From a virus, in IMG/VR virus record IMGVR_UViG_3300022752_000286, positions 1-29,518 of that record: DNA of 29,518 nt. One strand, written 5' to 3'. The notes beneath the pieces are model-generated. The model was not told the origin of the DNA. It made no database searches and saw nothing but the letters and a program-made list of their open reading frames with translations. The position numbers and the translations under genes are program-made. Below, one piece after another: positions 1,117-9,956 of this stretch. Position 1 is the stretch's first letter, and every line of letters starts with the position of its first letter.

Positions 1117-2241
1117 ATGATTTTTAAAGATTCACAAGAACAAATAAAACTCTTTAAACAAATTAGAGTCTCATTGGGTGAACCTGTCCGTGACTATGGT
1201 GATTGGGTAACAGATGATGTTATCGAAACATATGTGGAAATGGCTATAGAAGATTATATATCTTATTTAGATAATTGGTTAATTGAACAACAATGGTCTT
1301 CATTAGAAGGTTTAAATATAAGCACATCCAATTTTGTTGAAGCTTTTACAACAAAAAGTCTTGACTTTGAAAAATCATTTGCAATAGCATATGGAAAACA
1401 AACAGGTATATCAACACTAGGAGAATGGGAACTTAAAAGCGATTATGTTACAATATCAGCAGATACACAAGTATATACAATTCCATCAGGTAGAGAAATA
1501 AACGAAGTATTATGGTATACACCACCTCAAATTGCAACTAATATACTTGACCCCATTGGTATGGGAGGTGGATGGTTTGGCGCACCTACAGGTTGGTATT
1601 ATGCAAATGTTCCCGCACAAGCAATGTTACCATCTTTTTCTTTGATTCTATCCACAATGGATAGATTGCAAAAGAAAAAAATTATACAAAGCGAACTAAC
1701 ATATAGAATAGCACCAGGACCAAATAAAACAAAAAAACTTTTTTTATATCCTATACCCGGAACTAGAGAAGAAATTGTTGGTAAATTCGGTAAAACACAA
1801 GAAGGTGCTAAAGTTTGGTATTTTTATTATGATACATTTGATGCCAAAGAAAGAGATTTATGTTTAGAAGAAAATGAAGATGTGGTAAAATTACCATCAG
1901 ATGTGCCAATTAGAATCAAAAAATGGGATAACTTAAACGCACCATCTAAAAATAAAGTAAGAAGATTATCAGTAGCATATGTAAAAAAATATTTGGCAAC
2001 TATTTGGGCAAAAACATCAGGTAAAGTTAAATTACCACAAAGAGATGAAATGATTGAAATAGATTATAAATATTTTTCAGATGATTATGATAAAGAAAAA
2101 GATGCAATATTTAAAGAACTACAAGAAGATTTGCTTGAATTTACATATCAAAAAATTATGGAAAAAAGAGCATCAATTGGTGAAAATTTAAATAAGGTAT
2201 TACAATATACACCTGCTTTAACTCAAGTAATTTGGAAGTAA
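1117..2241 (+). CDS. Neck / head-completion protein (T4 gp13-like), 374 aa
   Basis: The N-terminus (residues 10-60) has the pattern of T4-type neck protein gp13 homologues: a Leu-Gly-(Glu/Ala)-Pro-Val segment (LGEPV) followed by an Asp-rich stretch and a helix with regularly spaced acidic and aromatic residues (DDVIETYVEMAIEDYISYLD). In T4, gp13 joins gp14 at the portal vertex after packaging to close the head and receive the tail. The following gene resembles gp14, which supports the call. The middle (about 130-200) is Gly/Pro/Trp-rich, suggesting loops in an assembled ring, and no enzymatic motif is visible. An alternative is a different head-tail connector. The family call is motif-based and moderate. 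Confidence 0.6.
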   Translation: MIFKDSQEQIKLFKQIRVSLGEPVRDYGDWVTDDVIETYVEMAIEDYISYLDNWLIEQQWSSLEGLNISTSNFVEAFTTKSLDFEKSFAIAYGKQTGISTLGEWELKSDYVTISADTQVYTIPSGREINEVLWYTPPQIATNILDPIGMGGGWFGAPTGWYYANVPAQAMLPSFSLILSTMDRLQKKKIIQSELTYRIAPGPNKTKKLFLYPIPGTREEIVGKFGKTQEGAKVWYFYYDTFDAKERDLCLEENEDVVKLPSDVPIRIKKWDNLNAPSKNKVRRLSVAYVKKYLATIWAKTSGKVKLPQRDEMIEIDYKYFSDDYDKEKDAIFKELQEDLLEFTYQKIMEKRASIGENLNKVLQYTPALTQVIWK

Positions 2242-2739: not shown

Positions 2740-2797
2740 ATGTGGATGTAATGGTACAAAAAAACCATCAGTAATTATAAAAAGACCTAGAAAATAA
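2732..2797 (+). CDS. Cys-containing basic micro-ORF, 21 codons
   Basis: An ATG at 2732 opens a 21-codon frame that begins MHKCGCNGTKKP and ends with the basic run IIKRPRK. The start overlaps the last codons of the gp14-like gene. The stop (TAA, 2795-2797) shares its last A with the ATG of the membrane-protein gene at 2797. Start/stop overlaps at both ends, with no other gene in the gap, argue that it is translated. The CxC pair plus basic tail could bind a metal or nucleic acid, but no family is assigned. Confidence 0.45.
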   Translation: MHKCGCNGTKKPSVIIKRPRK

Positions 2798-3129
2798 TGG
2801 AATATTTATTTTTATCATTATTAATTGGGTTTTGTTCAGCCCAATTAACTAAAGTATTGGATTTTTCCTTCAATGAAGGAAATATTCTTGATTGGTATTA
2901 TATATTTTTATTAAAATATGTAGAACCAATATCTAAAAAATTAGCAAAACCACTTGGAACTTGCATTAAATGCTTTTCCGTATGGGTTTGTTTTCTTGTT
3001 TTTGGAATTTTTTTGATTTTTACAAACATTCCTTGGTTCTATATATTTCTATCTCAAGGAATTAGTGCTTATATAATTTACATATGTGAGCGTAAAGCCC
3101 ACTCATCACGAAGTGTGGGTGGGATGTAA
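2797..3129 (+). CDS. Membrane protein with PLGTCxxC motif, tail altered by an IS insertion
   Basis: Residues 1-15 are hydrophobic, and two further hydrophobic segments lie at about 60-78 and 79-96, predicting three membrane helices. A conserved-looking PLGTCIKCFSVW segment (residues 52-63), with paired cysteines facing a Trp, resembles small phage membrane proteins of unknown function. The native protein probably ended two residues after Tyr95 (...AYIIY-RE, 97 aa). The mobile element joined after codon 95 (base 3081) replaces that end with a 15-residue foreign tail encoded by the element's left end (ICERKAHSSRSVGGM). It may still function, because all predicted helices are retained. Confidence 0.65.
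   Translation: MEYLFLSLLIGFCSAQLTKVLDFSFNEGNILDWYYIFLLKYVEPISKKLAKPLGTCIKCFSVWVCFLVFGIFLIFTNIPWFYIFLSQGISAYIIYICERKAHSSRSVGGM
3090..3125 (+). repeat. Left-end subterminal hairpin of the IS element
   Basis: The sequence folds into a CCCA/TGGG stem enclosing an unpaired CTCAT and a CAC-GAA-GTG mini-hairpin. IS200/IS605 transposases recognise such imperfect palindromes near each end. The hairpin is read through by the end of the upstream membrane-protein gene. Confidence 0.6.
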
Positions 3130-3214
3130 GCGACCATTTATTCTAATAATTTAATAAAATGTAGAGAAATTTTATATTTTCTTTAAACTTTTTAATTTTT
3201 CTGACTATTTATAT

Positions 3215-4396
3215 ATGATGTTGAAAGCTTTTAAATATAGACTTAACCCTAATGAAGAACAAATTGTTCTTCTTAATAAACATATTGGTGCAAGTAGGTT
3301 TATATATAATTTAGCTTTGGAAACAAAACAAATTGCTTATGCTAGTAATAAACATAATTTATCTTGTTTTGAATTACATTCACAACTTAAAGATTTAAAA
3401 GAAGAATGTCCTTGGTTAAAAGAACTAAATTCACAATCATTACAACAAGCAATAACTAATTTAGATAAAGCTTATACAGCTTTCTTTAAAGGTTTAAACT
3501 CATTTCCTAAATTTAAAAAGAAATCTAATAATGGTAGTTTTAATATTCCACAAAGAGTTATAGTAGAAAATGGTAAATTAATTATACCTAAATTCACAAA
3601 GAAAAATGGAATTGATATAATCTTACATAGACCAATTAAAGGTGAAATAAGGCAAGCTACCATTAGTAGAACACCTACAGGAAAATATTTTGTATCTATT
3701 CTTTGTGAAACTGGTGACCAAAATAAAGATAAATCTAAGATAAAGGAAGAAACCACGATAGGTATTGATTTAGGGATTAAAGATTTTGCTATAACATCTA
3801 ATGGTGAAATATTTTCTAATCCAAAATATTTAAGAAAGGTACAGGATAAATTAAAATATCTACAAAGTAAATATTCTAAAAACAAAGGAAAAAAAACAAA
3901 ACAAAAATTAGCAAAACTACATGAAAAAATAGTAAATAAAAGAAAAGATTTTTTGCATAAAGTATCTACTAAACTAGTTCGTGAGAACCAAACGATTTGT
4001 TTAGAAAATTTGAATGTATCAGGAATGTTACAAAACCATAAATTAGCACAAAGTATTAGTGATGTAAGTTGGTCAACATTTGTATCTATGTTAGAATATA
4101 AAGCTGAATGGTATGGTACGAATATACTTCGTATAGGTAGATTTGAACCAAGTTCAAAAACCTGTTCTGTTTGTGGTAATATTAATAAAGAACTATCTTT
4201 AAAAGATAGAGAGTGGACTTGCACTAAATGTAATACTACGCATGATAGAGATGTAAATGCTGCAATAAACATTAAAAATTTTAGTTTAAGAAATATCTTG
4301 TCAGGAACTGACAGGAAAAATCATGACGAACTGCCTACGTTAGTAGGAGTGATGACTCATGAAGCCCATCCCATCGGCTATGCCGTGGGTGGGTAG
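3215..4396 (+). CDS. tnpB: TnpB RNA-guided endonuclease (IS605 OrfB family), 393 aa
   Basis: TnpB proteins are RNA-guided DNA nucleases related to Cas12. They help IS200/IS605 elements persist by cutting the donor or empty site. The N-terminus has the family signature (KAFKYRLNPNEEQ). The RuvC residues appear intact: Asp185 in IGIDLG, Glu264 in CLENL, and Asp346 in DRDVNAAINI. The zinc-ribbon cysteines are Cys317, Cys320, Cys336 and Cys339. Its 393 residues fit an intact family member. Two ATGs occur in tandem at 3215 and 3218, and family starts (MLKAF) favour the second. The C-terminal codons run through the right-end hairpin, as expected when the omega RNA overlaps the 3' end of the gene. 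It appears functional, not decayed. Confidence 0.93.
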   Translation: MMLKAFKYRLNPNEEQIVLLNKHIGASRFIYNLALETKQIAYASNKHNLSCFELHSQLKDLKEECPWLKELNSQSLQQAITNLDKAYTAFFKGLNSFPKFKKKSNNGSFNIPQRVIVENGKLIIPKFTKKNGIDIILHRPIKGEIRQATISRTPTGKYFVSILCETGDQNKDKSKIKEETTIGIDLGIKDFAITSNGEIFSNPKYLRKVQDKLKYLQSKYSKNKGKKTKQKLAKLHEKIVNKRKDFLHKVSTKLVRENQTICLENLNVSGMLQNHKLAQSISDVSWSTFVSMLEYKAEWYGTNILRIGRFEPSSKTCSVCGNINKELSLKDREWTCTKCNTTHDRDVNAAINIKNFSLRNILSGTDRKNHDELPTLVGVMTHEAHPIGYAVGG

Positions 4397-4420
4397 TTCA
4401 CAGAGAATAAATATCTCTAG
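4290..4420 (+). ncRNA. Probable omega RNA (reRNA) with guide from downstream flank
   Basis: The 3' end of tnpB contains a chain of hairpins: a perfect 6-bp stem TGTCAG-GAA-CTGACA (4299-4313), CCTAC/GTAGG (4334-4338 with 4342-4346), and the right-end palindrome (4365-4393). This arrangement is typical of the omega RNA scaffold that TnpB processes from its own mRNA. The guide is known to come from the sequence just past the right end, which here begins at 4402 with AGAGAATAAATATCTC. The 5' boundary is uncertain, and the guide length (about 16-20 nt) is taken from the family. Confidence 0.55.
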
Positions 4421-8799: not shown

Positions 8800-9210
8800 T
8801 TAACCACCAATTATTTTTCTTATTGAATCATCATATTTTTTTACATTATTGTTTTGAATATTTACTGATTCTTGTAAATTATCATTTTTAGTTTCCAAAA
8901 ACAAATATGCATTTGGTGTAGAAGGTGTAGCAACGAGGTCAAAACAAATAAGTTCAAAATCATCTTGAACAATATTTTTTCCACCTACTTTTTTAACACT
9001 ACCTAAACCTCTTGATGAAATACCAAGTTTAAGATTTCTTTGTAGATATAAAGCAATTTTATCACCAACACACCAACCAATACCATCTCTCATGAATGAA
9101 TCACTAACGATAATATCAAGAGTTCCATAAACTGCGTTACCTGACCACCATGTTTTTGCAATTCTATGGGATATGTTTTGTAAGGAGATTGTAACCGAAT
9201 TCCATTCCAT
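8800..9210 (-). CDS. gp21: Prohead protease, C-terminal extein (frame-shifted fragment)
   Basis: This frame encodes the second half of the gp21-like maturation protease. Conserved gp21 features include SVTISLQNISHRIA near the start, the presumed catalytic-Ser segment LGISSRGLGS, and the downstream DLVATPSTPNA. The first four codons (MEWN) are the end of the intein plus duplicated sequence. The real C-extein should begin at the Ser of codon 5 (9198-9196). It is out of frame with the upstream N-extein/intein ORF by a 5-bp tandem duplication at 9201-9210. The ATG at 9210 could in principle start an independent polypeptide, but that would lack the presumed catalytic His encoded upstream. Confidence 0.85.
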   Translation of the reverse strand: MEWNSVTISLQNISHRIAKTWWSGNAVYGTLDIIVSDSFMRDGIGWCVGDKIALYLQRNLKLGISSRGLGSVKKVGGKNIVQDDFELICFDLVATPSTPNAYLFLETKNDNLQESVNIQNNNVKKYDDSIRKIIGG

Positions 9211-9956
9211 AATGCATATCCATTATCTCTGACCAAAAACGTGCTATTTGGTGTTTCAATACATACAACCTTACCATTATAATTTTGTTTTTCTACTTTA
9301 ATAGTTTCAATATCTATTTGATTAATTTCAAATTCATTATCCCATAAAGAATTATTAGGAATAAATAAAGAATTGGTATTATTATCTAAAATTTCTTGAG
9401 CAGTAATGAAGAACTTTTCTTTTTTATTATTATTTACATAAAATCTGTGATTTGGTGTTACCAAAAGGTCCATATATCTACCTTTTAATGAAATCATTTC
9501 ACCATTATATTCTTCATTTATTACTGTTAATACAGGTTGTAATTCAATTTGATTAGTTTCTGTATTTAATGTAAAAACTTTTTCACCTACGACAACATCT
9601 TTAATTAATTTCCAACCCGATTCAGTAAAAACTTCTGCTGTTTCACGATGACATTCAGGATGGTCAGCTTCATTAAGTGCTGCATAGTCATTAATAAGTT
9701 TTTGATATTCATCTATTTGTTTTGCTAATATTTCTCTTGGATAAACTCTACCATTACGGTTTAGAACATCGGCTTCTTGAAGTTTACAATCAATATAAAA
9801 ATGACCATCAAAATCATTTCTTCTATATTTTGAATTTAAATCTTCAAATATTTTTTTATTATTTATGGTTAAATCATTTGAAATAATACCTGCATCAGTT
9901 TCTACCAATAAACCATATCCTTCTTGTCCTTCTTTTAGTAGTTGTATTTCATTCAT
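9090..9956 (-). CDS. gp21: Prohead protease N-extein plus mini-intein, then frameshift
   Basis: Residues 1-101 are the N-terminal half of a T4 gp21-type prohead protease (DVLNRNGRVYPREIL, then a NEADHPE segment containing the presumed catalytic His99). Cys102 to Asn251 are an intein. In T4, gp21 degrades the core and trims capsid proteins. The reading frame leaves the extein after Asn251 and runs 37 unrelated residues to a stop at 9090, overlapping the true C-extein in another frame. The start ATG overlaps the stop of the upstream gene (TAATG). After frame correction and splicing the protease would be about 233 residues, close to T4 gp21 (about 212). Confidence 0.88.
   Translation of the reverse strand: MNEIQLLKEGQEGYGLLVETDAGIISNDLTINNKKIFEDLNSKYRRNDFDGHFYIDCKLQEADVLNRNGRVYPREILAKQIDEYQKLINDYAALNEADHPECHRETAEVFTESGWKLIKDVVVGEKVFTLNTETNQIELQPVLTVINEEYNGEMISLKGRYMDLLVTPNHRFYVNNNKKEKFFITAQEILDNNTNSLFIPNNSLWDNEFEINQIDIETIKVEKQNYNGKVVCIETPNSTFLVRDNGYALWNGIRLQSPYKTYPIELQKHGGQVTQFMELLILSLVIHS
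9200..9210 (-). repeat. 5-bp tandem duplication causing the protease frameshift
   Basis: The plus strand reads TTCCATTCCAT, two copies of TTCCA/TCCAT in direct tandem. On the coding strand this gives TGGAATGGAAT. Removing one 5-bp copy yields ...Ala-Leu-Trp-Asn|Ser-Val-Thr..., the expected intein/C-extein junction in one continuous frame. Confidence 0.85.
9204..9653 (-). other. Mini-intein (150 aa) inserted at the protease active-site motif
   Basis: The segment starts with Cys102. Block A follows (CHRETAEVFTESGWKLIKD, then VVVGEKVFTL). Block B contains VTPNHRFYV with the TxxH motif (Thr167 to His170). Blocks F/G read VVCIETPNSTFLVRDNGYALW and end at Asn251, with Ser as the expected +1 residue. 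The penultimate residue is Trp rather than His, which is tolerated in some inteins. There is no homing-endonuclease domain; 150 residues is a typical mini-intein size. It sits two residues after the HP of the conserved protease motif, the usual intein habit of occupying invariant sites. Confidence 0.9.

Follow-up and report, generated by a model that had tools for sequence, protein, structure and literature searches.

The prohead protease gene of an uncultivated T4-like phage, carried on a 29.5-kb virus record (29,518 nt; hereafter the window), is split between two reading frames at the end of a mini-intein. We attribute this split, with a probability of roughly 0.9, to the loss of one base, seen in this contig alone and either an artefact or a private inactivating mutation, in an ordinary mobile mini-intein that lacks a homing endonuclease. 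The initial annotation had raised the possibility of translational recoding at this site. With that claim removed, the remaining finding is a modest one: in an uncultivated T4-like clade, the gp21 prohead protease carries a mobile mini-intein that is present in some close relatives and absent from others. Inteins in phage genes are known, and this one is a further case.

A gp21-type protease gene interrupted by a mini-intein

Two minus-strand ORFs, 9956–9090 and, in the −1 frame, 9210–8800, together make up one gp21-type prohead protease. As initially annotated, the N-extein and mini-intein share one frame, which is open to 9201, and the C-extein lies in another, with the frame lost at the intein/C-extein junction. 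The parts are listed below; here and throughout, a slash within a protein sequence marks an intein boundary.

9654–9956, minus strand: N-extein of the gp21-type prohead protease; Peptidase_S77 match; 101 aa ending ...NEADHPE and holding the predicted catalytic His
9201–9653, minus strand: mini-intein CHRETAEVF...GYALWNG; intein/Hint matches; 151 codons in the N-extein frame
9201–9202, minus strand: frame-break site; in the DNA alignment the window is 1 nt shorter than 3/3 intein-bearing relatives
9199–9209, minus strand: apparent 5-bp repeat TGGAATGGAAT, resulting from Trp-Asn-Gly-Asn coding together with the missing base
8803–9198, minus strand: C-extein SVTISLQN...KIIGG in the −1 frame; matches Peptidase_S77, PHROG 207 and 5jbl; holds the predicted Ser motif GISSRGLG
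9092–9222, minus strand: overlap of the two open frames, to which any −1 shift would be confined

The assignment to gp21, also made initially, holds for both halves of the gene. The N-terminal half scores 29.4 bits against Pfam Peptidase_S77 (cut-off 27) and the C-extein half 43.3 bits, likewise above the cut-off. The C-extein additionally matches PHROG 207, head maturation protease (E = 2.9e-24), and the structure of T4 gp21 (PDB 5jbl), to which an intein-less relative (L085) aligns over 150 residues (E = 1.3e-14). The gene lies between those for the portal (gp20) and the major capsid protein (gp23), within the usual T4-like head cluster: terminase (gp17), gp20 portal, a 254-aa ORF, gp21, an acidic 699-aa ORF at the scaffold position, and gp23. 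No isolated phage matches the window at the DNA level, and the nearest isolated phages at the protein level share less than 60% identity.

The 5jbl chain has Ala at the position of the relatives' His of DHPE and at the first Ser of GISSRG; from the numbering, we take these to be engineered changes at His85 and Ser140. The predicted catalytic residues are thereby distributed over both halves of the window gene, with the His on the N-extein and the Ser on the C-extein. Both exteins match T4 gp21 (5jbl, Pfam S77), but the window gene differs from that of T4 in having an intein inserted two residues downstream of the predicted catalytic His.

The insert is best read as an ordinary class-1-type mini-intein without a homing endonuclease, placed after His-Pro-Glu in a gp21 homologue and predicted to splice in its intact form. 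Its Cys1 (C102) directly follows HPE, and the T-x-x-H motif of block B is present as TPNH within VTPNHRF. Intein profile matches are significant, though below the curated cut-offs (Intein_splicing 23.2, cut-off 35.8; TIGR01445 19.7, cut-off 24.5). The initial placement of the intein after His-Pro-Glu, with the C-extein restarting at SVTIS, is borne out by these intein/Hint matches and by an intein-like C-terminus in three relatives. An AlphaFold2 model of the intact precursor of one of these (L082; 6 sequences) had a mean pLDDT of 29 and gave no usable structure.

Inteins occur in phage genes for terminase, RNR, PhoH, thymidylate synthase and others. The present one resembles them in its Cys1 and block B TPNH, in the FLVRDNGYALWNGN/S C-terminal end of the relatives' copies, in interrupting a conserved essential protein at its active-site region, and in its patchy distribution. 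It differs from them in its host protein, the gp21 prohead protease, in having no homing endonuclease domain and, in the window, in having its last Asn and the +1 Ser out of frame. The available portions of the literature on inteins in prohead proteases report none in a gp21-type protease.

One missing base at the intein end

The C-extein is found at 89–98% identity in 18 viral contigs, three of which also carry the intein (L082, L083 and L084, on the contigs of L002, L019 and L013, respectively). Across N-extein and intein, these three are 89–93% identical to the window, and the window N-extein is 92–98% identical to those of intein-less relatives. Each of the three encodes 385 aa in a single frame, reading ...NEADHPE/CHRETAEVF...FLVRDNGYALWNGN/SVTISLQN..., so that the C-terminal Asn and the +1 Ser (WNGN/S) are in frame. 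The remaining relatives read NEADHPE-SVTISLQN or a close variant; L085–L091 and others pass directly from HPE to SVTIS, an exact absence of the intein at the same site. All C-extein loci that we fetched (80/80) are open through the junction, intein present or not. A pattern scan of IMG/VR that allowed 0 or 1 base at the break returned only the contigs of the three intein-bearing relatives, all with the base (23-nt matches). The comparison of related phages at this junction, proposed in the initial annotation, thus finds an intact frame and no duplication, which disfavors programmed recoding.

Alignment of the DNA to the three intein-bearing relatives places the defect precisely: a single nucleotide is absent from the window between positions 9202 and 9201, within the codon of the Gly that precedes the terminal Asn, the second-last codon of the intein. 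In tblastn searches with each relative's protein, the match breaks off at 9201 and restarts at the same base in the other frame, and re-reading base 9201 restores ALWNGN/S, as in the relatives. As it stands, the intein frame of the window reads WNG-IRLQ, which leaves residue 152 of the intein, Asn, in the other frame. As written, the window thus carries a defective intein rather than a functional one.

The initial annotation had ascribed the break to a 5-bp tandem duplication. The letters TGGAATGGAAT do occur exactly at the junction, at 9209–9199, but the alignment, with its single missing nucleotide, rules out a duplication as the lesion. In the relatives, Trp-Asn-Gly-Asn is encoded by TGGAATGGTAAT or TGGAACGGTAAT (TGGAA[T/C]GGTAAT), and TGGAATGGAAT looks like a tandem repeat because one base is gone from this coding. 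The window is AT-rich and holds 36 period-5 repeats of 11 nt or longer, where a first-order Markov simulation gives about 23; the repeat alone is therefore unremarkable. Removing 5 bp, thought at first to give a perfect intein end, yields ALWN/S, two residues shorter than in every relative.

Origin of the frame break

In the normal state, the precursor would be translated straight through the intein, splicing being predicted for the relatives; Cys1 and the terminal Asn/+1 Ser would then splice the protein and rejoin the HPE-SVTIS active-site region. With one nucleotide absent from the second-last intein codon of this contig, the product as written would comprise the N-extein, an intein lacking its terminal Asn and the +1 Ser, and then a short tail read out of frame. 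Since the intein end is out of frame and the predicted catalytic residues lie on both halves, no protease is expected from the gene as written.

Selection on the gene bears on how old such a break could be. Compared with relatives, dN/dS is 0.05–0.16 for the C-extein (0.05 against L082, with 26 synonymous and 6 nonsynonymous changes) and 0.11–0.24 for the intein (0.11 against L082, with 25 synonymous and 13 nonsynonymous changes). These low values imply that both were functional and under selection until very recently, and the strong purifying selection on the C-extein argues that the break is not real or else arose very recently. Among the explanations listed initially was an assembly error or recent mutation, which, with intact relatives and one base missing, is the best supported. 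Two points weigh against this reading. The deletion is not plainly homopolymeric, as the relatives read GGTAAT and three consecutive A would arise only if this strain's Gly codon were GGA; it also falls within 4 nt of the splice junction, slightly surprising for a random event (about 2% of gp21 positions lie ≤6 nt from a junction).

The probable cause is an error of sequencing or assembly, the phage itself being healthy and its real genome having the frame intact. The lesion is an isolated single-nucleotide indel, the rest of the gene is strongly constrained, and gp21 is essential in T4 (PMC9026906). Moreover, intein-plus and intein-minus haplotypes coexist in the clade with near-identical exteins (97.4% and 99.5% for L084 versus L015), so that an assembler would meet a branch point at this junction. 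The likeliest cause is a mistake in assembly or consensus at the intein boundary, where the community's intein-plus and intein-minus phages diverge, and the closeness of the lesion to the junction appears to fit such a branch point. We also considered a switch of haplotype at the junction and rejected it, as the nearest relative varies stretch by stretch region-wide and there is no single breakpoint to blame. Against an error, we found no other window-specific frame break in the approximately 22.8 kb comparable with relatives' ORFs, so the contig is generally accurate. A second frame-shift match, at 1772–1989, was traced to an L115 ORF of 85 aa; the gene at that place in the window (1117–2241) is open.

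The same cleanness of the window would speak for the next likeliest cause, which is possible but less probable than error: a real, recent, private inactivating mutation that is carried by part of the population and entered the consensus, the variant being dead or complemented, for example through co-infection. That no relative has the lesion likewise speaks for such a change. However, loss of the protease should be lethal, so the variant should be rare among reads and the consensus would normally show the intact form.

Neither programmed frameshifting nor bypassing is supported. In a programmed −1 frameshift, the short junction would be real and fixed, and ribosomes would slip at the last codons of the intein, so that the protease was made only at a reduced rate; the spliceable fraction could then act as a dosage control on head maturation. 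A shift exactly at GGA/AAT would indeed yield the native end ALWNGN/SVTIS. The product initially suggested for a −1 shift, WNWN/S, is however not the native end, which in the relatives is ALWNGN/S. Within the overlap zone (9222–9092), there is neither a slippery X XXY YYZ heptamer nor a run of six, and no unusual, potentially stimulatory RNA structure, predicted stability being no greater than that of shuffled sequences (z +0.8, +1.2). Nor is the arrangement of frames conserved: the relatives are in frame and need no shift (80/80 loci). We consider both the frameshift and its regulatory extension very improbable. Recoding at an intein end, if ever shown, would be a new tie between protein splicing and translation; it has no support here.

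A natural split gene is still less credible. An ATG at 9210 lies in the C-extein frame and could start a separate C-extein protein beside an N-extein/intein protein, but that ATG overlaps intein codons, the second product would have no C-intein, the predicted catalytic His and Ser would sit on different chains, and no relative has a split.

Least likely of all is a gene 60-type translational bypass, with the ribosome hopping five bases from one AAT to the next: the AAT codons match as a consequence of the sequence itself, the product would end ALWN/S, two residues short of the native intein end of every relative, and neither a gene 60-type take-off hairpin or stop nor a conserved gap accompanies them. 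The window resembles T4 gene 60 and known −1 frameshifting genes only in having two frames that need joining, and differs from them in lacking a recoding signal or conservation, with relatives that need no recoding.

Apparent intein mobility and other elements

The intein is 90–96% identical at the DNA level among its four carriers, whose exteins are 81–92% identical. In L084 (3001–4155), the exteins are 97.4% and 99.5% identical to those of the intein-less L015; its intein matches that of L083 at 95% identity, although the exteins of these two are only 81–87% identical. This mismatch between intein and extein identity indicates that the 152-residue intein was recently gained or lost within the clade. 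The intein has no endonuclease domain, and the route was presumably recombination.

Further inteins and an IS-like element were also observed. In distant gp21 homologues (L026, L034, L041 and L053, upstream of 3001), we observed a different intein of about 380 aa, GE/CVPEG...WTHN/CDHPE, whose long insert may be a homing endonuclease. It lies a few residues upstream of the mini-intein position, so gp21 has two neighboring intein sites. Two close relatives carry inteins at one site in the portal gene gp20 (LPGA/CLSLDT...VNN/S), with an HNH-like insert in L113 (from 10001) and as a mini form without the insert in L112 (from 2234); gp20 of the window has no intein. Finally, at 3081–4401 the window holds a TnpB-bearing IS200/IS605-like element, with no obvious TnpA, that is absent from relatives at that position. 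It is placed after TTTAC, ends in TTCAC, and takes the place of the final residues encoded by the small membrane protein gene upstream of it (2797–3129).
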